Part shown: positions 52,483 through 63,633 of the stretch, piece by piece | Numbering within the stretch: the stretch's first letter is position 1 | Layout: the number at the start of each line of letters is the position of its first letter | DNA from: Fimbriimonadaceae bacterium | Lineage (GTDB): Bacteria; Armatimonadota; Fimbriimonadia; Fimbriimonadales; Fimbriimonadaceae | Assembly: GCA_019454125.1 (NCBI GenBank) | Contig: CP075365.1 | Span: 2,288,218-2,352,217, forward strand | Length of the DNA: 64,000 bases | Direction: 5' to 3' | Translations under genes and position numbers: made by a program | Notes under the pieces: model-generated | Databases searched by the model: none | What the model saw: the letters and a program-made list of their open reading frames with translations, nothing else | What the model was told of the DNA's origin: nothing

Positions 52483-54735
52483 TTAACGCGTAGCAGTGAT
52501 CTGGGAAAGGCGTTGCTGTTGCTGCTGGAGTTGGCTGATTGCTTGCTCCATTGCCAAGAACCGCTTGCGCAACGTTTCTTGCCTTGATTTCAGTAAGAGA
52601 TTGAAGCTCTCGATCTGCGTGTCCAACTCGGTCATTTGCGTCTGGAAGCTGTTGGTCGAGGCCGTCAGGATCCCCGAGTCTGAAGCGTTAAACAGGTTCG
52701 CCGTGCTATCGGCGAAGGATCCCAGGCCCTGCGAAAAGACCATGCTTCCGATAAAGCCGAGCGTGTTCCCGGTATAGCTAATCTGGAGTCCATCTGTCTT
52801 GCTGTTGCCTTTGTTTCCAGCAAGAAACTGTCCGAGTCCGGTCGCGGGCTCTCCGTTAATCGTGCCTGCGACGTTTAAGGCATTAGTATAGTCGCCACCT
52901 TCCAATCCGATTCCACTATTATCCGTGGATGCTTCCAAGTTGCTCTTTACGGTAAAATCGCCCGGTGTACCCCAACGCTTGCTGGTTAGAAGTAGCTTAC
53001 CTTCACCGTCCAGCGAGGCAGCTACGACTTGATTGAGCTTGGCGTCGTTGTTGATGAGATCGACCAGATTCGCTGCAGTCCCGCCAGATGGAACATTCAG
53101 GGTCACTTCCGTGTTGCTGAAACCAGAACCGCTGAATGTCAAGATTTCACTGACGCTAGGATCTGTTTGAACTGTGGTTCCGGCCATCGTGGCCTTCGTC
53201 GCCAGCTGCGTAATGTCTATTGAGTAGCCCAATGACCCTGAAGACTTCGTACTCAGAGTACTGGACACGTAGGACAACTCCGTGTTCGTCGAAGATCCAC
53301 TTGCCGCAAACAGCTTTTGGACTGCAGCTGGATTTGCGGTGAAGGCTTCTTGAAGCTTATTCTTGTCTACGCTCAGTTTGCCGTCGGTTCCTAACGTGAT
53401 GCCGATCTGAGTCAAGTTCTTGTATTCGGGACCCGTGACATCCTGGAACGCAAGCCCTTGCAGGGCTGCTACAACCTGGGAAGCAATGGGGTCACCGAAG
53501 AGCGGGCCGGAGGCAAAGGTGTCCTTATCGAAGGAACTATTGCTGGAAATAAAGTCCATGACCCCGTTGAAGGCCGCGACGAGGGACTCTATGTTCTTGA
53601 CCGCGCCGCTTGTATCGCGTTCAAGGGTTAGAGTCGTGGTTAGTGGCGTCGTCTCATCGCCCTTTAGCAACTGTAGCGTCGCCCCAGGAATAAGATCACT
53701 GATCGTATTCGTGCTACTGGTCTGCTGGATACCATCGATCGAGAAGACCGCATCTTGCGCATTGGTGACCGTGTTCTGCTTGCCGGCTTGAAAAACACCC
53801 AGGGCGTTGAGGAGCCCGTCTGTATCTACCAAGACAGGAAACGCAGAACTTCCCTTTAGCTCCAGACTATAGACTTCCTTGCCGCCTTTAGTGGTTTTCA
53901 CGACCGTTGCGGTCGTGTCCGTTTCCAGGGCATTGATCTTTGCTGCCACCGTAGTGAGGGAGTCGACACCGAAATCAATATCGACTTGTTGCCCATCGAC
54001 CGTAAACGAACCAGTGGAGGAAACTCCGATCAGCGACGAAAGTACGGTTGCGCCGTTGCTTAGACCAAAGCTACGTACAGTATCGGGTCCTACCGTCTCA
54101 CGGAACGACTTGGTACCCGAGATGATCCCGAGTGTTTCGAAGACACTTCCACTTAAGTCTGCGAGTTGAATGCCGTTGGTGGTTCCGGTAGTGCTGGAAG
54201 TCAGCGTAAGGTAGGCATTCCCGGCACCGCCATTTAGGACGCTTGCGGTGACGCCGATGTTCAGCTCGTTGATTCGTGATGCAATACTCGATATCGAGTC
54301 GGAGGCCCCTATTTGGAAAGACTTGCCGTTGATGACCGCCGTGCCCTCGTAACCGAGAGCCGCAGTGTGGCTTGCTTGGGGAGCGCTGCTAATCTTCTCG
54401 GCCCGGGCAATCTTTGAAACGCTGAGTTCGTAAACCCCGGCGGTTACCCCGCTTGTGCCTGTAATCGTTGCGACCGACGTGTCGGAACTCTTCGCAGCCA
54501 CCCCGTTAAAGCTAGAAGCCTGCTTAAGGCTGGCGGCCGCGGTGGAAAGAGCCGAAATCCGTGTCCGGATCTGACCGTAAATTTCGGACTTTCTCTGGAG
54601 CGCGGACTTCCGAAGTTGCAGACGGTTGAGAGGCAGTGCCTCGATCTGCATCAGCTGGCTCACGATCGAATTTACATCGATTCCGGAGCCGATACCCGAA
54701 AAGCTTATCCCGCTGAGACTGCCACTTAAGCCCAC
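52483..54735 (-). CDS. fliD: Flagellar filament cap protein FliD (HAP2)
   Basis: A 750-residue FliD. The N-terminus SGSLSGISFSGIGSGIDVNSIVSQLMQIE is diagnostic, and the chain ends in a coiled coil (QTQMTELDTQIESFNLLLKSRQE, then a Gln-rich stretch). It caps the growing filament and helps flagellin fold. Typical FliD has 450-670 residues; the middle contains extra Ser/Thr-rich beta domains (about 240-600), probably surface exposed. It is the distal gene of the cheW-cheA-HDOD-fliD minus-strand block, 70 bp after the HDOD gene. Confidence 0.94.
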   Translation of the reverse strand: MGLSGSLSGISFSGIGSGIDVNSIVSQLMQIEALPLNRLQLRKSALQRKSEIYGQIRTRISALSTAAASLKQASSFNGVAAKSSDTSVATITGTSGVTAGVYELSVSKIARAEKISSAPQASHTAALGYEGTAVINGKSFQIGASDSISSIASRINELNIGVTASVLNGGAGNAYLTLTSSTTGTTNGIQLADLSGSVFETLGIISGTKSFRETVGPDTVRSFGLSNGATVLSSLIGVSSTGSFTVDGQQVDIDFGVDSLTTVAAKINALETDTTATVVKTTKGGKEVYSLELKGSSAFPVLVDTDGLLNALGVFQAGKQNTVTNAQDAVFSIDGIQQTSSTNTISDLIPGATLQLLKGDETTPLTTTLTLERDTSGAVKNIESLVAAFNGVMDFISSNSSFDKDTFASGPLFGDPIASQVVAALQGLAFQDVTGPEYKNLTQIGITLGTDGKLSVDKNKLQEAFTANPAAVQKLFAASGSSTNTELSYVSSTLSTKSSGSLGYSIDITQLATKATMAGTTVQTDPSVSEILTFSGSGFSNTEVTLNVPSGGTAANLVDLINNDAKLNQVVAASLDGEGKLLLTSKRWGTPGDFTVKSNLEASTDNSGIGLEGGDYTNALNVAGTINGEPATGLGQFLAGNKGNSKTDGLQISYTGNTLGFIGSMVFSQGLGSFADSTANLFNASDSGILTASTNSFQTQMTELDTQIESFNLLLKSRQETLRKRFLAMEQAISQLQQQQQRLSQITATR

Positions 54736-54805
54736 TTCTTAGTTCCTTCCACTTACCGGTCCATGGTCAGGGACTATCATCGCATAAACCCTCAGGTATA
54801 CGGGG

Positions 54806-55684
54806 TCACAACATGCCAAGAAGTTCCTTCGCGTTCTCGACGAACTGCTCTGTCTCTAACCGGAGCTCTTTACGCTCCTCGATCGAGTGCCCGAGCCACT
54901 CCTCAGCTCGAGGATCCCACGGCCAGAGTGGCGAGCACTCTTCGCCCAGCCAGATCTCGCTGGCGAGCCGGTCCGCGATGTGTACGCAGTACAACCGCTC
55001 GGAGTTTTCAACAGGATCGCCTTCTTCAAAGCCGTCATGGAGAGTAATCATTTCGCAAAGCGAAACCGGAAAGTTCCACTTCTCCGCCAAGACACCACCA
55101 AGATGGGCATGTGTGGTTCCCAGAATCCGTTGCTCGGTAGAGGACAGCGGCTCGGCCAAGCGGCTGGCTTCCGTCATAACCTGCGTGTAAGGTTGGTTGA
55201 ACAGCGTTAACAGGAAGAGCCGGCCAATGTCGTGCAGAAGGCCACCCACGAAAACCAACTCTTGCTCCTTTGTGCTGTGACCTTTTCTTCGGGAAATGGT
55301 CTGCGCACAAGTGGCAGATGCGAAACTGTGCTGCCAGAACTGCCGCTGGATCTCGATGATCCTGGGGTTGGGCGACGTCAGGGCATTGACGACGCCAATG
55401 CTCAGCACCAAGTTTCGTACTTGCTGGATTCCGAGGATTGCCAGGGCCTGGCCAATGCTGGCCACTTGCCGGGGTAGTCCAAAGTACGCGGAGTTCACGA
55501 CCTTGAACAGCTTCGTCGTGATGGAAGGATCCGTCGAGAGAAGTTTCTCGATCTCCGCCATGCTGACGTTCTCTTTGTCGGTCGCCTGCAGAACCTGTAC
55601 GATAACCGACGGCATAGCCGGAAGGTCGACCATCGCCTTTTCAATGTAGCGTTGGAGAAGGAAGTTTTCTGATCTTAATGCCAT
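54806..55684 (-). CDS. HDOD-domain signalling protein
   Basis: A 292-residue protein covered by one HDOD domain (about 15-210): LPAMPSVIVQVLQATDKENVSMAEIEKLLSTDPSITTKLFKVVNSAYFG is the diagnostic start, followed by GGLLHDIGRL. HDOD proteins link to HD-GYP and chemotaxis or motility control, and usually lack their own enzyme activity. It lies 12 bp after cheA on the same strand, so a role in the chemotaxis or flagellar pathway is likely. Confidence 0.9.
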   Translation of the reverse strand: MALRSENFLLQRYIEKAMVDLPAMPSVIVQVLQATDKENVSMAEIEKLLSTDPSITTKLFKVVNSAYFGLPRQVASIGQALAILGIQQVRNLVLSIGVVNALTSPNPRIIEIQRQFWQHSFASATCAQTISRRKGHSTKEQELVFVGGLLHDIGRLFLLTLFNQPYTQVMTEASRLAEPLSSTEQRILGTTHAHLGGVLAEKWNFPVSLCEMITLHDGFEEGDPVENSERLYCVHIADRLASEIWLGEECSPLWPWDPRAEEWLGHSIEERKELRLETEQFVENAKELLGML

Positions 55685-55696
55685 CTGGATACCCTA

Positions 55697-57700
55697 CTAG
55701 TCCGTATTCACTAAACTGTTCACGTCGACGATGAGGGCCACATTCCCATCACCAAGAATGGTGGCCCCGCTGACACCTGTTATGTCCCCACAGAATCGGC
55801 TAAGGGACTTGATGACCACTTCTTGTTCGCCGATGAGGCGATCGACGACCAACCCCAACCGCTTTTCTGCCAGTCCGACGATAACCACGAAGATCGGTTC
55901 ATCTTCTGGCGACCCGGTCTCGCTTGAAATGCCCAAAGTTGCGCCGAGCCTCATCAGCGGTGTGGTCATTCCACGGATGACGATAACTTCGTGCTGGTTA
56001 ACCGTCTGGATTTCCCGTCGCTCGATAAGGAGCGTCTCAATGACGGTGTCAAGGGGCAGCACATAAACATGTTTGCCAAGGCTTACTAAGAGTCCTCGAA
56101 TGATTGCGAGGGTAAGCGGTAATCGAAGGCTAAACTTTGTCCCTTCACCTATCTTGGTCTCGAGATCGATGATGCCACCGAGCTTCTGGAGGTTGGAACG
56201 GACAATGTCCATGCCTACCCCGCGGCCCGAGACCTCAGTAACCGCCTTAGCCGTGCTGACTCCGCTCGAGAAGATGAGCTGTAAAGCCTCCTTTTCGCTC
56301 ATGCGGTTTGCCTGCTCGGTAGTGATGAGGCCCTGGGAGATCGCCTTAGCCTTTAGTCTTTCACAATCGATGCCACGACCATCGTCCACAATCTCGATGA
56401 CAATGTGGTTTTCAAGATGGAGGGCCGAGAGCTTCACGACGCCCTGGGTCGGTTTCCCGACGGCCCGACGCTCGTCGGGAGTCTCAATGGCGTGGTCCAC
56501 ACAGTTTCGCAACATGTGCAAGAGCGGATCGCCGATGACCTCGATAACACTGCGGTCAAGCTCGGTCTCACCACCGCTCACCTCCATGCGCACATCTTTG
56601 CCAAGTTTTTGGGCCAAGTCGCGTACAACCCTTGGGAATCGGCTAAAAACGGTCTCGATCGGCATCATTCGGGCCTTCATAATCTGGTCTTGAAGGTCGC
56701 TTGTGATGCGGGCAATGTGGCTCACCGCCTCTGAGAGATGGTCGACACTGCGATCGTTATGGCGCGTTGCAAGCTCACTTGCAAGGCTTGCAAGCCGGGT
56801 TCGGTCAATGACCAGCTCACCGACAAGGTTCATCAAATTATCAAGGCGGGAAACATCGACCCTTACGGTCTGGCCCGTCTCGGTCTTTCGAGATGCTGTC
56901 GCGGCTTGAGGAGCAGGGGCCTGAGGCAGATTGTTTCGAACTGTGTCGGTCTGTTCCTGTCGCGCAGGCGGCTTCCATACCTGCAAGGTGAAGTTTGCAA
57001 CTTCGCTAATCTCTCGGAAGCTGGCCTTGAGGCTCTCCTCAGGGCTTTTTGAGTGGAAGTAGAGCTCGAAATGCTGTTCAAACTTCTCTTCTTCCAGTTT
57101 TTCCCGTGCGGGAACTGTGTGCAGAAGTTCGCCATCCTCTTGGATAGCGGAGATCGCCATAAATGCCCTCGCAAACTTCATCACACAGTCGGGCTGCAAC
57201 GTAAAGCTGGCGTGCCAGATCGGTGAGTCCTTCGACGCTATCCGCAGGGCGTCGATCTCTTCCTCTGGAAGCTCGCTCTTCACCGGTTTCGTGGTCGGCC
57301 CAGAAGCAACTTCGCCGCGCACAAAGCTTTCCAGTCTTTGGACAAGGGCAGTGCAATCGATCCCATCGCCTTGTCCCGCACTGATGCCCTCAGACATTTT
57401 GCGAAGGTTGTCCAAGCCTTCGAGCAAAGCGTTGGCGAGTTCCGTCCCAACCTCGAGCTGTCCGTTACGCAGTTGGTCGAGGACATCCTCCATCGAGTGC
57501 GTGAGGACGGCAAAGTTTTCAAAACCCATCGCACGGCCGCTCCCCTTCAACGTGTGGGCCGAGCGAAAGACGACCTGGAGCCTCTCGTCAGAAGGCTCCT
57601 GCTCCAGGAGCAAGAGTTCTCGCTCCAAGATGTCCAGCTGCTCTTCCGCTTCCTGGAGGAAAAGCTCCAGGTATTGGGACATGTCGAGTTCGGTCGCCAT
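55697..57700 (-). CDS. cheA: Chemotaxis histidine kinase CheA
   Basis: A 667-residue kinase: Hpt domain with phospho-accepting H49 (FRSAHTLKGSGRAMGF), a P2-like CheY/CheB-binding region (about 150-245), dimerisation domain (RVDVSRLDNLMNLVGELVIDR), HATPase with N box (MLRNCVDHAIETPDER), G1 box (IEIVDDGRGID) and G2 (GRGVGMDIVRSN), and a C-terminal CheW-like domain (about 530-667). It starts 17 bp after cheW. A full core kinase set for receptor clusters; receptors and CheY are outside the window. Confidence 0.96.
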   Translation of the reverse strand: MATELDMSQYLELFLQEAEEQLDILERELLLLEQEPSDERLQVVFRSAHTLKGSGRAMGFENFAVLTHSMEDVLDQLRNGQLEVGTELANALLEGLDNLRKMSEGISAGQGDGIDCTALVQRLESFVRGEVASGPTTKPVKSELPEEEIDALRIASKDSPIWHASFTLQPDCVMKFARAFMAISAIQEDGELLHTVPAREKLEEEKFEQHFELYFHSKSPEESLKASFREISEVANFTLQVWKPPARQEQTDTVRNNLPQAPAPQAATASRKTETGQTVRVDVSRLDNLMNLVGELVIDRTRLASLASELATRHNDRSVDHLSEAVSHIARITSDLQDQIMKARMMPIETVFSRFPRVVRDLAQKLGKDVRMEVSGGETELDRSVIEVIGDPLLHMLRNCVDHAIETPDERRAVGKPTQGVVKLSALHLENHIVIEIVDDGRGIDCERLKAKAISQGLITTEQANRMSEKEALQLIFSSGVSTAKAVTEVSGRGVGMDIVRSNLQKLGGIIDLETKIGEGTKFSLRLPLTLAIIRGLLVSLGKHVYVLPLDTVIETLLIERREIQTVNQHEVIVIRGMTTPLMRLGATLGISSETGSPEDEPIFVVIVGLAEKRLGLVVDRLIGEQEVVIKSLSRFCGDITGVSGATILGDGNVALIVDVNSLVNTD

Positions 57701-57717
57701 TCGGGTTCTTCGGAGTC

Positions 57718-58173
57718 TCAGGCCGCGAGGGCCTTATCAAGGTCGAGGAGCGTGACCAGCGAGTCGCCGCGCTTGGCGACCCCCCGGACGAAATCTGAGG
57801 CGGGGTCGCCTACCAGCGACGGAGTCTCATCGACCGTGTCGGACGAGATCGAGACGACCTCGCTCACAGCGTCGACGATGATGCCGACGTTGCCTCCGTC
57901 CGTCTCCACCACGATGATTCGGGTGAGGTCGGTCTCAGCGTTCGAGGCGAGGCGCAGGCGGGTGCGAAGGTCGACCACTGGGATCGTCTTGCCGCGAAGG
58001 TTGATAAGGCCGCGGATGTGCTCTTCGGTCCGGGGGATCGGGGTGATCTCCCGCATCCGAATGATCTCGTTCACCCGGAAGATATCGATCCCATAGGCCT
58101 CAGTGCCCATCTTGAAGACCACCATTTGTCGTTCGGTAGCCTCCGCCTTCACATCACCGATCAGGTCTGCCAT
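57718..58173 (-). CDS. cheW: Chemotaxis adaptor CheW
   Basis: A 151-residue CheW. ATG 58173 with GGAG 7 bases upstream is preferred to a TTG two codons earlier. Family blocks: QMVVFKMGTEAYGIDIFRVNEII, PRTEEHIRGLINLRGKTIPVVDLR, and the closing LLDLDKAL. It couples CheA to receptors. First gene of the cheW-cheA-HDOD-fliD block. GC content returns to the high level within or just before this gene. Confidence 0.95.
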   Translation of the reverse strand: MADLIGDVKAEATERQMVVFKMGTEAYGIDIFRVNEIIRMREITPIPRTEEHIRGLINLRGKTIPVVDLRTRLRLASNAETDLTRIIVVETDGGNVGIIVDAVSEVVSISSDTVDETPSLVGDPASDFVRGVAKRGDSLVTLLDLDKALAA

Positions 58174-58432
58174 TCGCAATCTCCTGACTTTCTTTTCGGC
58201 AAGTTTCCCGGCGTCCTTTATTGCCGGATCAGGGTTAAGTGGCGAACCAGCCTGGAGCCTGTCGAGGCCTAGGCCTACGAGCCCCTCTCAGAAAGGCGCC
58301 TTGACCGTTTCCGAATACGATGGCGTTGGACCTATCCCGTGCCTTATAGAGTTATTGAGTTGCGTTATAGGCGTCCGCCGAGTCCTGGCTCTTGACACCC
58401 AACGAGTTTTGGGGCTAGCCATCCATACAGGC

Positions 58433-58446: not shown

Positions 58447-59427
58447 ATGACGTCCATGCGAATCTGCTCGGTTCTGCTGGCGGCGGTTCTGGGAGGCATT
58501 GCGTGCGCCGCCACCCTCACCATAACTTCGCCGACCGAAGACGATTTCCTTGGTAAGACCAACAAGGTCAACTTCAACATTCGAGGCGCGATCCGCGAGG
58601 TCCGCGTCCGAGTCCGCGCCACCCTGAAGACCAACACCTCGGTCTTCGTCCAGGTCGAGAAGAGGTTCACGCCGAACATCGACGGCGAGGTCACGGACAG
58701 CATCGACCTCGACTTCGACGACTCGACCCCGGAAGGGATCTACACGATCCAGGTGACCCCGACGGAGCCGGGCAACACGTATAACGTCGTGCCCGAGATC
58801 GAGGTCACGGTCGACGTGCAGGAACCGAAGTTCATCAACGCCAACCCGGTCAACAACACGTTCGTCCGCGGGATCGTGCCGATCACGGCGAAGCTGCAAG
58901 AATCGAACGTCGACTTGTGGCGCGTGACCATTGACGGGTCCGGCATTCCGAACAACAGCGGCTCGGCCACGGACATCAACGTCCAGTGGAACACCGCTTC
59001 GATCCGGACAGACGGCTCCAAGACGATCTTGATCAAAGTCGATGACCTCGCGAAGAACTCGACCAGCCGAAGCGTCGACGTCACCCTAGACCGCCTGCGG
59101 CCGAACTCGGTGATCAACTCGCCTCGCGCGAACGCCTCGGTCAAGCCGAACACCGACATTGCGATCTTTGTGCGCGTCAACGACCAGTTCCAGGGCTCGG
59201 TCGCCTCGACCGGCATCGTAGTGGAAGCGCGGACTTTGCAGAACAAGTTCATAACCCGTGCGGCCCGCCGCAGTGCGGACGGCGACGGGAACGGGATAAA
59301 CTGGTTCGGAAGGCTAAGAGCGACACGAAGTTTGCCCTCGACGTTTAAACTCGTCGTCCTGGCAATCGATCGTGCCGGAAACTCGGCCGTGGTCCAAGAG
59401 ACCCGTGTCCGAATCGCGAATCGTTAG
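58447..59427 (+). CDS. Exported Ig-like domain protein of unknown function
   Basis: A 326-residue protein with a signal peptide (residues 1-21, ending ACA|ATLTITSPTEDD). The mature part reads as three Ig-like beta-sandwich repeats of about 90-100 residues (about 22-118, 119-215, 216-326), each with the SP/NP-turn and closing IKVDD- or VLAID-type strand (RTDGSKTILIKVDDLAKNS; LPSTFKLVVLAIDRAGNSA). No catalytic motif is seen. It is the first gene of an operon with an outer-membrane barrel and a caspase-like protein, so it may be a surface or periplasmic partner of these. A second ATG at codon 4 is possible. Confidence 0.82.
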   Translation: MTSMRICSVLLAAVLGGIACAATLTITSPTEDDFLGKTNKVNFNIRGAIREVRVRVRATLKTNTSVFVQVEKRFTPNIDGEVTDSIDLDFDDSTPEGIYTIQVTPTEPGNTYNVVPEIEVTVDVQEPKFINANPVNNTFVRGIVPITAKLQESNVDLWRVTIDGSGIPNNSGSATDINVQWNTASIRTDGSKTILIKVDDLAKNSTSRSVDVTLDRLRPNSVINSPRANASVKPNTDIAIFVRVNDQFQGSVASTGIVVEARTLQNKFITRAARRSADGDGNGINWFGRLRATRSLPSTFKLVVLAIDRAGNSAVVQETRVRIANR

Positions 59428-59487
59428 GACACTCCCGATACGTCGAATAAGATTGGGCGGAGTCCGCAAACAGGGAAAGGTGTGACA

Positions 59488-60615
59488 TTGACTGCATGGA
59501 AGCAAATCGTTAGCGTCGGGATCGGGGTCGGCATGGTGGGAGTTTCCCAGGCCCAGATCCCAGACCTTCTGAACGCGCTCGACGCGGGAGGGCGGGCTAT
59601 GGGTGTCGGCGGGGCGACCGCCTCGACGGACGGCAACACGTTCTCCGCCCTCAACAACCCGGCCGGCCTCGCCTACATCCCGAAGACGAGCATCGGGACC
59701 GCCTTTCGGAACCTGCCTGAGTCCGAGAACAGGATCTCGGGCGACTTCAACGACCCCACCTTCAGCACCAGCCGAAAGCACGGCCCCAGAAAGCTGACCC
59801 ACGCCGGGTTTGCGATGCCGTTCCGAGGAGGCGTGCTCGGGCTCTCCTACACCTTGGGCGGCTATATTGCCGACCGGACACGGGGCGACAACCTGACGAA
59901 CGGCAACCTCGTCAACCGGGGCTACGATTCCAACCTCACCGTACAGTACGACTTCTTCACGCTGGCCTATGGCAAACGCGCGGGGAGGAACAACTACGGC
60001 GTCGGAATCGTCTTCGCGAACCAGTACCTGCGCGACGACACCACCTATGTCGTCTTCGACAACAACCAGAACCAGATCGACGTCGTGCTGACGGACAACT
60101 CCGGCAACTCGCGGGGCATCGGGCTCGTCGCAGGATTCCAAACGAACCCGGACGACCGGAGCGTCTTCGGCGCGAGCATCCGCACGCCCATCGGGCTCAC
60201 CCGCAACGCGGCCACCGGCGCCTATAACAACCGCATCCCCGGCAAGGCCTCGATCGGCTACGCCACGCGGTCGGACTTCTTGCGCAACGGCCGGGACTTT
60301 TTTGCCTACGGGGCAGAGGTCGACTATTACTTCGCCGGTGACCGGGGCGGGCTGCTCGACCGGAAAGACGTGCTCGCCGGCGGCGTTGGTTTTGAGTACA
60401 ACACCCACCGATGGGGCGGAAGGGTCCCGTTCCGGGTTGGGTACCAGTTCTCACCCGAAGGCGGCAGGGGCTTCAGCGAAAGGAACGCGCTGACTTTTGG
60501 CCTTGGGTATCGTCCAGATAACAGCGACCTTGCGCTTGACTTGAACTTCGCCGCTCCTTCAGGAGGCGGAACGTTGGACACAGCGCTGTCGGTGGGCTAT
60601 CGGATCGGAAAGTAA
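59488..60615 (+). CDS. PorV/PorQ-like outer-membrane beta-barrel protein
   Basis: A 375-residue protein starting at TTG 59488, because GGGAAAGG lies 7 bases upstream (a GTG two codons earlier is too close to it). Signal peptide ends VSQA|Q. The mature N-terminus DAGGRAMGVGGATASTDGNTFSALNNPAGLAYI is the signature of PorV/PorQ/FadL-type barrels. The rest alternates amphipathic strands (YGVGIVFANQYLRDDTT, FRVGYQFSPEGG) and ends in an aromatic/hydrophobic strand (LSVGYRIGK). It shows that the cell has an outer membrane. It is 60 bp after the Ig-like gene and 15 bp before the caspase-like gene. Confidence 0.82.
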   Translation: MTAWKQIVSVGIGVGMVGVSQAQIPDLLNALDAGGRAMGVGGATASTDGNTFSALNNPAGLAYIPKTSIGTAFRNLPESENRISGDFNDPTFSTSRKHGPRKLTHAGFAMPFRGGVLGLSYTLGGYIADRTRGDNLTNGNLVNRGYDSNLTVQYDFFTLAYGKRAGRNNYGVGIVFANQYLRDDTTYVVFDNNQNQIDVVLTDNSGNSRGIGLVAGFQTNPDDRSVFGASIRTPIGLTRNAATGAYNNRIPGKASIGYATRSDFLRNGRDFFAYGAEVDYYFAGDRGGLLDRKDVLAGGVGFEYNTHRWGGRVPFRVGYQFSPEGGRGFSERNALTFGLGYRPDNSDLALDLNFAAPSGGGTLDTALSVGYRIGK

Positions 60616-60630
60616 GCTGAAGGATCAAGG

Positions 60631-61977
60631 ATGAGACTCAAAGCGCTGATGACTGCAGGGCTACTGGTCGGTGCCTCCGCACTGGCCCACGGCCAAGCTT
60701 GGAACGACGCCTATCAACGGGCACTCGCCGCGGCCCGGTCGCAAAACTGGATGGCCGCGCGGGACGCCTTCCAAGAAGCGATCGCGATCCGGCCGGAAGA
60801 CCAAGCGGGCCCGACCGTGCTGCCCGGCTCCGTCACCGAGCCCGTCCGTTGGCGAGACGGTTCCCCGTACTCGCCGAACTTCGGCTTCGCCTATGCGAAC
60901 TATAAGCTCGCCATGGCCGCGAGCGGCGATGACCGGAACGACTTCCTGAACGTTGCAGCCACGACCTTTGAGACCCTGCTGGCAAAGGGCCAAGCCTCGT
61001 CCGCGACCTACTACTTCTTGAACCGCGTCTACGGCGAACAGGGCCGGCCGGACAAGCAGCGCAACCTCGAGGAAGCGCTTAAGCAGACCGGGGCTGCCTG
61101 GAGAGTCGACACCGAGTTCGTCGCTCCCGAGGAGAAAGCGAGCGTCGTCAGCGCCACGCCTGCGGAGATCAAGCCGAACGAGCCCATAAAGGCAGGTGCC
61201 ACAACGACCCCCGGCGGCATCCTTACGCCGAAGGTGGCCGCAGAGAGCACAGCGCTTGTCGGACGTGTCCCCATCGTGCCCACGAAGTTCGCGCTCATCA
61301 TCGGCAACGGGCAGGGCAACATCGAGGGTGCCGGCCTCTCCTTCGCGAGCAGCGACGCGATGTTCCTTCGAGACGCCATCGTGCAGAACGCGGGCTACGA
61401 CGAAAAGAACGTCGAGCTGATCGTCGACGCCACCGCCGACCAGATGAGGATCGCGGCAGCGGCCCTCGCAGAACGCATGCCCGCCGACGCCAAGCTCATG
61501 GTGTTCTTCACCGGCGTAGGCGTGAACATCGACGGGCGCGACTACCTTGCAGGAATCGATGCGACTATGACCACGGACACGTCGCACATGCTCTCCAAGC
61601 AGGAGATGTACGGCATGTTCTTGAGCAAGGGAGCCCAAGTCTTCGCCTTTTTCCAGACGAACCGACCCGTGGTCGGTGGACGCTACTTCGGACAGGAGTA
61701 CCCGCTCGTCGGGGCTATCAGCCAAGCCCACGCAACCTCGCCCGACGCGCAATGTTTCGCGACCCAGAGCGAAGGCCGCCTGATCGGCGTCTACACAAAG
61801 GCTTTCGTGGACGTGGTGGGCACCTTGCGCTCGAACAACATCATCATCGGGGAATTCGGGTGGCAAGTCTTTAACGCCGTCCGCGGCGGATTGCCCGGAC
61901 AGCGGGATGGTGGTGGGTCCGTTCAGGTTCCCTCGCTGCCAGTAGTCCGATACATGAGCCCGAGCGCCGGCTTCTAA
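60631..61977 (+). CDS. Exported TPR protein with catalytically dead caspase-like domain
   Basis: A 448-residue exported protein. Signal peptide (about 1-22, ALAHG|Q), then a TPR-like helical part (about 23-150: AYQRALAAARSQNWMAARDAFQEAI), a linker rich in Thr/Pro, and a caspase-like fold from about 210 (TKFALIIGNGQGNIEG, LSFASSDAMFLRDAIVQNAGY). Where active caspase-like peptidases have GHG the chain reads FFTGVGVNIDGRDYLAG, and where they have DACR it reads AFFQTNRP, so both catalytic residues are gone. It therefore likely binds rather than cuts. It is coupled to the upstream barrel gene (15 bp). Confidence 0.8.
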   Translation: MRLKALMTAGLLVGASALAHGQAWNDAYQRALAAARSQNWMAARDAFQEAIAIRPEDQAGPTVLPGSVTEPVRWRDGSPYSPNFGFAYANYKLAMAASGDDRNDFLNVAATTFETLLAKGQASSATYYFLNRVYGEQGRPDKQRNLEEALKQTGAAWRVDTEFVAPEEKASVVSATPAEIKPNEPIKAGATTTPGGILTPKVAAESTALVGRVPIVPTKFALIIGNGQGNIEGAGLSFASSDAMFLRDAIVQNAGYDEKNVELIVDATADQMRIAAAALAERMPADAKLMVFFTGVGVNIDGRDYLAGIDATMTTDTSHMLSKQEMYGMFLSKGAQVFAFFQTNRPVVGGRYFGQEYPLVGAISQAHATSPDAQCFATQSEGRLIGVYTKAFVDVVGTLRSNNIIIGEFGWQVFNAVRGGLPGQRDGGGSVQVPSLPVVRYMSPSAGF

Positions 61978-61994: not shown

Positions 61995-62867
61995 ATGACT
62001 TCTGCGAGAGGGCGCTCGGATCTGCCTGCCCTTGAGCCCGGTGCGGTCGCCCTCATGCGCCATTTCGAGGGCGACTTTGCCGATCGGTACATCACTGAAC
62101 TGCTGGTCGGTCGGATCCGTCGGACACTCGGCTGGAGCGTCCCCGACAAAAGCAACCTTGCAGAGCTTCTTACCGACCCCTACAAGGCGCTGGCCGCCTT
62201 CTATGGCCATTACGCCTTCTCCCGCCGGGGCAAGGAGCGGGACCTTGTCGGAGGACTCGCCATTGGCGCCCTCAACCGCCTAGCCGAACAAACGGGCTTT
62301 GAGGAAGCCCTCCAAATGCCGGACGGCTCCAAGCTTTGGGAGGCCTTCTGCAAGGTCTGCGAAGAGAGGGGCAAGAATCCGACCGAAGCCCAGAACCGCG
62401 GGCCCATCCAGGGCATGCTGGAGCTTGTTCAAGAGATCCATCGCTTGGATCCTTCGCTCTCCGTGAGCACCTGGGTAGCGAGAGACGTGGAGAAGACCGG
62501 GCTCGTGGAGCCCCAGTACCTGCGCATGGTCGATATCCGCGGCCTGGGCCCGAAAGGCACCTCGACCTTCCTGCGAGACATGGTCTGGCTGTACGACGTG
62601 GAGGAAAAGGCAAACCCTGCCGAGCGGATCTTCGTCCAACCGATCGACCGGTGGCAAAGACAGATCGTCAAGCACGTCGTCCCGGCCGAAGACCAGGGGG
62701 CACGCGCCGATTGGGTGATCGCCGGCAAACTCGCGAAGTACACGCGCCGAGCAGGGGTCAGCGGAGTGCGCTTCAACATGGGCGTGACCTTTTTCGGTCA
62801 AAGGATCGTCCACAAGCCGGAGGACTTCGAAGGGGCCGTCCGAACGCTCCTGGTCGGACTTCAGTAA
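61995..62867 (+). CDS. Cytoplasmic protein of unknown function, HhH-like
   Basis: A 290-residue soluble helical protein, 17 bp after the pseudo-caspase gene. No family is recognised with confidence. The segment MVDIRGLGPKGTSTFLRDM (about 178-196) looks like a helix-hairpin-helix loop, and IFVQPIDRWQRQIV (about 211-224) occupies the place of the VD.H.xR block of HhH-GPD base-excision glycosylases, but the usual catalytic pattern is not clear. It may be a DNA-binding or repair protein. Operon position next to surface proteins may be accidental. Convergent with coaX, 7 bp apart (CCCGGGC). Confidence 0.65.
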   Translation: MTSARGRSDLPALEPGAVALMRHFEGDFADRYITELLVGRIRRTLGWSVPDKSNLAELLTDPYKALAAFYGHYAFSRRGKERDLVGGLAIGALNRLAEQTGFEEALQMPDGSKLWEAFCKVCEERGKNPTEAQNRGPIQGMLELVQEIHRLDPSLSVSTWVARDVEKTGLVEPQYLRMVDIRGLGPKGTSTFLRDMVWLYDVEEKANPAERIFVQPIDRWQRQIVKHVVPAEDQGARADWVIAGKLAKYTRRAGVSGVRFNMGVTFFGQRIVHKPEDFEGAVRTLLVGLQ

Positions 62868-62874
62868 CCCGGGC

Positions 62875-63633
62875 TCAACTCATGCGCTCGGCCGCAAGAA
62901 GCAACCCGTCCAAAGTCAGATTGCCCTCGAACACGTCGATCCTCTCGCACATCGTGGCGAAGACCTCGCCCAAACCGCCCGTGGCGACGACCTTCGCCCG
63001 GCCACCCAACTCCTGGACGATGCGCGCGGCCACAGCGTCCACCGAACCGGCATAGCCGTACATGACGCCGCTCTCCAGGGCCGCCACCGTGTTGCGCCCG
63101 ATCGCTTCGCCGGGCAGCTTCAATTCGATCGGAGGCAGCTTCGCCGTGTGCTGGGCAAGCGCCTGGACTGCGACCTCGACCCCCGGCATGATCGCGCCGC
63201 CGACATAGCTCGCCTCGGCGTCCACCGTGTCGAACGTCGTCGCCGTCCCGAAATCCACAACGACCACGGGCGTGCCGTACCGCTCGATCGCGGCCAGCGC
63301 GTTCGCCAAGCGGTCTGCCCCGACCGCATGGGGCGGGTTGTAAGTCACGCGGAGCCCCACCTGGTCGCCCCGCTCCAAAAAGCGCGGCTCGACGTGCAGC
63401 CACTTCTGTGAGAGCCGCCGCCAGACCGTGTCCTCGGTCGGTACGACCGACCCGACGATCACCGTCTCCGCCGCGAAGGGTAGGTGCGAGAGCTCGCAAA
63501 GCGAGTGCAAGGTCGCGGCCAAGGCGTCCTCCGTGTGCGCGCCGGTCTCGAGCCGCCACACCGCCCTCCACCCCTGGCCGTCGTGACGGCCGATCACGGT
63601 ATGGGTGTTCCCTACGTCAATCGCCCAGAGCAT
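62875..63633 (-). CDS. coaX: Type III pantothenate kinase
   Basis: A 252-residue kinase that phosphorylates pantothenate with ATP as first step to coenzyme A. Phosphate loop AIDVGNTHTVIG (4-15); GADRLANALAA and VVDFGTATTFDTVD are the ASKHA family blocks; GGAIMPGVEVAVQAL and TGGLGEVFA complete the fold. Its 5' end overlaps the 3' end of glmM by 17 bp in another frame, so the two are co-transcribed with glmM first. Confidence 0.96.
   Translation of the reverse strand: MLWAIDVGNTHTVIGRHDGQGWRAVWRLETGAHTEDALAATLHSLCELSHLPFAAETVIVGSVVPTEDTVWRRLSQKWLHVEPRFLERGDQVGLRVTYNPPHAVGADRLANALAAIERYGTPVVVVDFGTATTFDTVDAEASYVGGAIMPGVEVAVQALAQHTAKLPPIELKLPGEAIGRNTVAALESGVMYGYAGSVDAVAARIVQELGGRAKVVATGGLGEVFATMCERIDVFEGNLTLDGLLLAAERMS

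Follow-up and report, generated by a model that had tools for sequence, protein, structure and literature searches.

A lineage-wide caspase-fold protein lacking the His-Cys dyad is encoded beside an outer-membrane beta-barrel gene in Fimbriimonadaceae and related bacteria

Caspases cut with a His-Cys dyad, and a gene of a Fimbriimonadaceae bacterium appears to encode a caspase-like protein that has neither residue. The question raised by this locus is whether the protein is a caspase relative that has lost catalysis and, if so, what it would do in its host. The gene lies in the window, the whole stretch of 64,000 nucleotides of contig CP075365.1 analyzed here. The genome is a single 2.65-Mb contig, and the family Fimbriimonadaceae belongs to the Armatimonadota. 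The product, P0001, has 448 aa, and a protein 57% identical to it is encoded in a Fimbriimonadaceae MAG, the closest relative with a name. The initial annotation, made from the letters and their translations, described a clear caspase-like fold in which GHG had become GVG and the DACR region had become FFQTNR. Together with a signal peptide and TPR repeats, this was taken to indicate a secreted scaffold or receptor derived from a protease. The features of the gene are as follows.

60631..61977, + strand: pseudo-caspase P0001, 448 aa, third gene of a cassette (ATG at 60631, stop codon ending at 61977)
60631..60696, + strand: predicted signal peptide, residues 1-22, approximate (heuristic)
60697..61155, + strand: helical, TPR-like domain at the N terminus, roughly residues 23-175 (helices of the model)
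61270..61974, + strand: caspase-fold domain without the dyad, residues 214-448 (range of the AlphaFold2 model aligned to MALT1 338-560)
61516..61518, + strand: V296, position of the catalytic His
61654..61665, + strand: Q342 T343 N344 R345, position of DACR, within FFQTNR (register from hhalign)

When P0001 was searched as a single sequence against Pfam, NCBIfam, and the PDB, no caspase was found, only weak TPR-like or chance matches, and PF00656 had no match in P0001 or anywhere in the window genome. We then turned to alignment A1, which holds P0001 and 40 orthologs (41 sequences). PF00656 matched 30 of these members at E values up to 1, the best being 8.4e-13, and in genome scans some orthologs stood above the PF00656 cut-off (e.g., G007:C16, G108:C172, and G038:C75). 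The best match of the family profile in the PDB was MALT1, with an E value of 3.7e-7 and most of the domain covered; metacaspases were weaker. An AlphaFold2 model of P0001 was obtained with a mean pLDDT of 89 and a pTM of 0.71, the linker at about residues 176-213 having low confidence. The MALT1 paracaspase was also the best PDB match of this model (Z 23.0, 3.2 Å over 212 residues, about 19% identity; Foldseek E 5e-10). The superposition ran up to MALT1 residue 560, past the Cys-bearing half, and p10 was compared only within this whole-domain superposition. The assignment of the C-terminal half of P0001 to the caspase-hemoglobinase fold (clan CD, C14-like) is well supported by the predicted model together with the family profile. 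The fold claimed by the initial annotation was thus borne out, though it was invisible from the single sequence.

Next, the catalytic site was examined across the family. In the loop FTGVG, V296 stands where dyad-bearing relatives carry His, and none of the 41 sequences has a His there. The Cys position was placed at N344 by hhalign profile-profile comparison and by hmmsearch, at T343 by HMMER against MALT1, and at R345 by MAFFT. No Cys was present at N344, the most likely position, in any of the 41 sequences, or at 345; at 343, the only one was in L036, which has a Thr at its position 296. Hence, with L036 excepted, none of the three registers yields a Cys. The single Cys and the three His of P0001 are not conserved across the 41 sequences, and a search over the whole protein found no conserved His or Cys in this set. 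Positions 296 and 344 carried 23 different residue pairs among the 41 sequences, and the variability of position 296 was at the 83rd percentile within the caspase domain, whereas G295, D304, R345, F353, G354, and G386 were invariant. Therefore, the old site is no longer under catalytic constraint while the fold has been retained, and the family is not an enzyme with a fixed new pair. Both replacements noted at the outset were confirmed for P0001, and the loss of the dyad was common to all the orthologs aligned; the His-Cys dyad that marks C14 peptidases is absent from the family.

Orthologs of the pseudo-caspase were found in 81 of the 113 genomes of the class. They were present in families f1, f3, f4, and f5 and in none of the 14 f2 genomes among those listed; the f4 ortholog is a single fragment ending before the catalytic site. 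No full-length match outside the class was found among the matches listed for 291 genomes of the phylum. Since dyad-less orthologs occur across families of the class, the loss of the dyad is most likely older than the split of f1, f3, and f5. Other caspases of the phylum were scanned at 26 loci, chosen as the best hits to the family profile and so a non-random sample; 25 gave a domain, with GHG in 25 of 25 and Asp-x-Cys in 24 of 25. When 66 domains were placed in a tree, all 41 pseudo-caspases fell on one side of a branch with a support of 100/99.

Export of P0001 is suggested by a heuristic, according to which 38 of the 39 full-length members have a charged N terminus followed by a hydrophobic run, with an A-x-A-Q-like end in 32 of the 39; start codons were those picked near the start of the query. 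This agrees with the signal peptide proposed earlier. The mention of TPR repeats, in contrast, was overstated. The model does contain helices at residues 23-36, 40-53, 82-96, 99-118, 124-137, and 140-153, or about three helix pairs, and TPR_2 matched 22 of the 41 members at E values up to 1 (best 2.5e-5), but the matches of P0001 itself were below the Pfam cut-offs (TPR_9, 15.9 bits with a cut-off of 35; TPR_1, 15.3 bits with a cut-off of 27.8; best E 0.013). Conservation along the protein is highest in this domain, in a stretch (residues 61-90, mean entropy 1.20) that contains the block W74-Y88 (WRxGxPYSPNFxxAY), and this block is the best candidate for a contact site.

The strongest clue to the role of P0001 is the gene cassette, with a barrel and an Ig-like protein, in which it is encoded and which extends beyond the segment covered by the initial annotation. 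The other genes of the cassette and those flanking it are as follows.

58447..59427, + strand: cassette gene 1, encoding an exported Ig-like protein of 326 aa (Pfam Big_13 E 1.2e-4 and Big_7 E 0.0024, both below cut-off; alignment A3)
59482..60615, + strand: cassette gene 2, FadL/PorV-superfamily outer-membrane beta-barrel, 377 aa (predicted model and structure matches)
61995..62867, + strand: downstream gene, 290 aa, starting 17 bases past the pseudo-caspase stop
62875-63633, - strand: type III pantothenate kinase gene, convergent, after the 290-aa gene
52483-58179, - strand: FliD-like (by eye), HDOD, CheA, and CheW genes, upstream of the cassette

The Ig-like gene is separated from the barrel gene by 54 bases, and the barrel gene from the pseudo-caspase gene by 15 bases. 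The model of the barrel (pLDDT 87, pTM 0.83) gave a Z of 33.1 with E. coli FadL and of 25.7 with PorV (6h3i_F), so it is structurally closer to FadL. The PorV/PorQ family model NF033709 matched 34 of 34 barrel members, and the window barrel scored 34.3 bits with it, under the curated cut-off of 90. N59-P60-A61 is invariant in the barrel family; this Asn-Pro-Ala motif and the barrel fold are shared with E. coli FadL at about 15% identity. We know of no pairing of FadL with a caspase-fold protein.

The barrel gene was directly upstream of the pseudo-caspase gene in 37 of 40 loci, the exceptions being L026 (at a contig edge), L025, and L072. The gap between the two ranged from -4 to +35 bases in the 33 loci measured, L044 being omitted for its N-run. 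At that locus (in G007), an 826-aa frame seemed to fuse barrel and pseudo-caspase; the fusion was rejected, as the N-run of the assembly joins the two genes, and an automatic pipeline might annotate a fusion there that does not exist. Among the genomes of the class, 77 had the barrel, 76 of these also had the pseudo-caspase, and 74 had all three genes; an Ig-like ortholog was found in 76 of the 113 genomes, including a weak stray hit in G020. In the only barrel genome without a pseudo-caspase (G080), the contig ends inside the barrel gene. Five genomes had the pseudo-caspase without the barrel. In G040 and G069, the gene is broken at contig ends. In G020, G031, and G090, from two genera, neither the barrel nor the Ig-like gene was found, save the stray hit in G020, and a more sensitive barrel profile still gave no barrel ortholog in them. 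On present evidence, these three are real exceptions, so the pseudo-caspase can persist alone. The near-perfect dependence is therefore mainly one-way, the barrel being more dependent on the pseudo-caspase than the pseudo-caspase is on it.

The 290-aa gene is probably in the same transcription unit, and its membership in the cassette is not clear; it was near the pseudo-caspase gene in many but not all related loci. Its product had no match in Pfam, NCBIfam, or the PDB; by eye, one stretch resembles a helix-hairpin-helix. A scan for promoters and terminators found no promoter-like site, and the terminator-like sites were mostly within genes. cheA and cheW were neighbors in many f1 loci and were not found in f5 loci. 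No description of the cassette was found among open-licence papers.

Taking the fold, the lost dyad, and the cassette together, we think that P0001 is probably an exported pseudo-protease, in which a dead caspase fold and a TPR-like domain act as a noncatalytic envelope adaptor for the barrel. P0001 would be made together with the Ig-like protein and the barrel and exported. Its caspase-fold and helical domains would dock on the periplasmic or the surface side of the barrel, and the docked protein may then bind the Ig-like partner, or some other client, to hold it or position it without cutting. Of the roles named in the initial annotation, that of a scaffold thus appears to be the most likely one. 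A surface receptor, an adhesin, or a released factor unrelated to the barrel would fit the heuristic signal peptide and the three genomes that keep the pseudo-caspase without a barrel. The tight gene order and the one-way dependence of the barrel on the pseudo-caspase point the other way, and we regard a role of this kind as unlikely.

The origin of the adaptor was addressed with the barrel profile, which outside the class found better relatives in G143, G146, G147, and G211. In G143 and G147, the genes stand in the same order as in the window: first a long Ig-repeat protein, next the barrel, and last a protein (1378 or 1520 aa) whose C-terminal PF00656 domain is above the cut-off and keeps GHG and DACR. 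In G146, the third gene is split across two contigs, and its caspase part retains the dyad. When the G143 protein was searched against 291 genomes, relatives were found only in G143, G146, and G147, plus a weak hit in G069. A dyad-bearing caspase thus stands as the third gene in three genomes, and the simplest reading is therefore that catalysis was lost in place. This suggests that P0001 would descend from a dyad-bearing caspase that formerly occupied the same position in the cassette. In a second tree, with 16 of the 41 pseudo-caspases and 21 of the 25 other caspases, the caspases of G143, G147, and G146 did not join the pseudo-caspases, and the two formed a single clade in 4% of the bootstraps; such a clade was not rejected (p-AU 0.26). 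N-terminal homology between the pseudo-caspase and the large proteins of G143, G146, and G147 was not detected by hhalign (probability 9%, versus 37% and 32% in two negative controls), and it was supported for a truncated third gene of 1077 aa in G039 (E 2.7e-9 among four sequences). The earlier proposal that P0001 is a pseudo-caspase derived from a protease is nevertheless well supported by the fold, by the lack of any conserved His or Cys, by the separate branch in the tree of 66 domains, and by the dyad-bearing caspases at the same cassette position.

Two further genomes showed variations on this arrangement. G039 (L125, L126, and L136) apparently has two barrel cassettes, each truncated by the end of its contig. 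One of them contains a short pseudo-caspase-like start, and the third gene of the other is at least 1077 aa long. On a third contig of G039 lies a caspase domain that is open at its start and has an intact dyad (GHG and DCC); this domain is possibly, but not necessarily, the tail of the 1077-aa gene, and no overlap was found. In G211, neither of the two barrel loci has an adjoining caspase gene. A 924-aa protein near the barrel at L131 (1800-4571, - strand), without a recognizable caspase domain, is possibly a variant of the third gene.

PorU carries a gingipain-type caspase-like fold. The window cassette resembles the PorU:PorV pair in that a caspase-fold gene adjoins the gene of a barrel from the same superfamily. 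In the attachment complex of type IX secretion, as described in PMC5562754, the sortase PorU is anchored via the barrel PorV; PorU is active, unlike the dyad-less P0001. The presence of type IX secretion itself in the window genome and 20 relatives was considered and rejected, as NF033707, TIGR04189, and PF18962 (PorU, SprA, and Por-secretion-tail) were never above cut-off. A weak match of about 95 residues to positions ~590-690 of the SprA model was seen at G000:C1:524405-524701; at least one such match occurred in each of the 21 genomes, and most of the proteins concerned were about 900 aa long. A wider reading of the adaptor would make the cassette a PorU:PorV-like outer-membrane module without type IX secretion. 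In such a module, a C14-type protein with the caspase fold would dock on the FadL/PorV-superfamily barrel and act on an Ig-domain client. The ancestral form, represented by the large dyad-bearing proteins of G143, G146, and G147, would cut, and the form in this lineage would only bind. Here, the Ig client would have shortened from some 1200 residues to some 330, and the caspase protein from some 1400 to some 450. We hold this wider reading to be quite doubtful.

A different role for a dead caspase would be to regulate an active caspase that is present in the same cell, or to serve as its decoy, in the manner of c-FLIP with caspase-8 (PMC6426788). PF00656 caspases above the cut-off do occur in many genomes of the class, and any match was found in 75 of 113, some of these being the pseudo-caspase itself. 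However, at least 12 of the 81 pseudo-caspase genomes, the window genome included, had no PF00656 match. Conversely, G013, G073, G075, G076, and G078 have caspases but no pseudo-caspase, and the pseudo-caspase gene clusters with the barrel, not with a caspase. Because the window genome and at least 11 others that carry the pseudo-caspase lack such a match, we consider a regulator improbable.

Could P0001 still be an enzyme that uses a different nucleophile, or a dyad that has moved? Polar residues that might serve are available, as D160, K219, and Q432 are invariant in the family in addition to D304 and R345. No His, Cys, or Ser of the caspase domain was conserved enough among the 41 sequences to be a catalytic candidate, however, and position 296 is highly variable. 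D304 and Q432 were invariant in 15 dyad-bearing relatives too, so these two look structural. We therefore give continued catalysis very little credence.

Constraint on the gene was examined with pairs of orthologs. The dN/dS ratio was about 0.03 for L046/L071, 0.015 for L092/L096, and 0.05 for L080/L082, and L075/L076 had no amino acid change at all at a dS of 0.05. Purifying selection thus acts on the pseudo-caspase in close pairs, all of them elsewhere in the family; between P0001 and its nearest ortholog, dN was 0.375 and dS 0.955, and dS was saturated in two further pairs. That the gene is decaying toward loss, as the disappearance of both catalytic residues might suggest, is hardly credible: dN/dS is well under 1 in close pairs, the listed orthologs have open frames uninterrupted by stops, and the gene is retained across the order.

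Dead relatives of caspases are already established in bacteria. In one survey, 858 of 9,994 bacterial orthocaspases were pseudo-forms, and 90% of these came from Alphaproteobacteria and Cyanobacteria (PMC6426788). P0001 has one defining trait of a pseudo-orthocaspase, a p20 domain in which one or both dyad residues are substituted; pseudo-orthocaspases are also defined by the lack of p10, and the P0001 model aligned through MALT1 residue 560. As in the pseudo-orthocaspases described by Klemencic et al. 2019 (PMC6426788) and in SyOC (PMC7889975), both residues are replaced and the replacement is conserved in a lineage; some of those proteins carry an export signal, as predicted for the P0001 family, and some carry TPRs. 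There are also differences. Pseudo-orthocaspases have common fixed pairs (YS, YN, and FS), whereas the P0001 family has its 23 pairs, and their TPRs are C-terminal, whereas the helical domain of P0001 is N-terminal (PMC6426788). They commonly retain the two Asp of the specificity pocket (PMC6426788); in the P0001 family, the position two before the Cys is Q in 30 and E in 11 of the 41 sequences, and D242 is Asp in 34. Positions 342 and 242 would correspond to the pocket residues Asp211 and Asp95 of TbMC2. MALT1, the closest solved fold, keeps its dyad (GHG and DMCR) and has other partner domains. The terms "outer membrane" and "Armatimonad" do not occur in the main text of PMC6426788, which makes no mention there of a barrel cassette. 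The P0001 family is set apart by the free drift of both catalytic positions, by the lost pocket Asp, by the placement of its helical domain at the N terminus, and most of all by the cassette with the barrel.

Bacterial pseudo-orthocaspases have so far come mostly from two groups and been linked to photosynthesis, and the P0001 family provides a different setting. Here, a lineage-wide dead caspase belongs to a fixed outer-membrane cassette, and in related genomes the same position is taken by a counterpart that bears the dyad. With such a defined list of partners, the role of a caspase fold that does not cut becomes testable. The association of caspase-fold proteins with FadL/PorV-type barrels may extend beyond type IX secretion.
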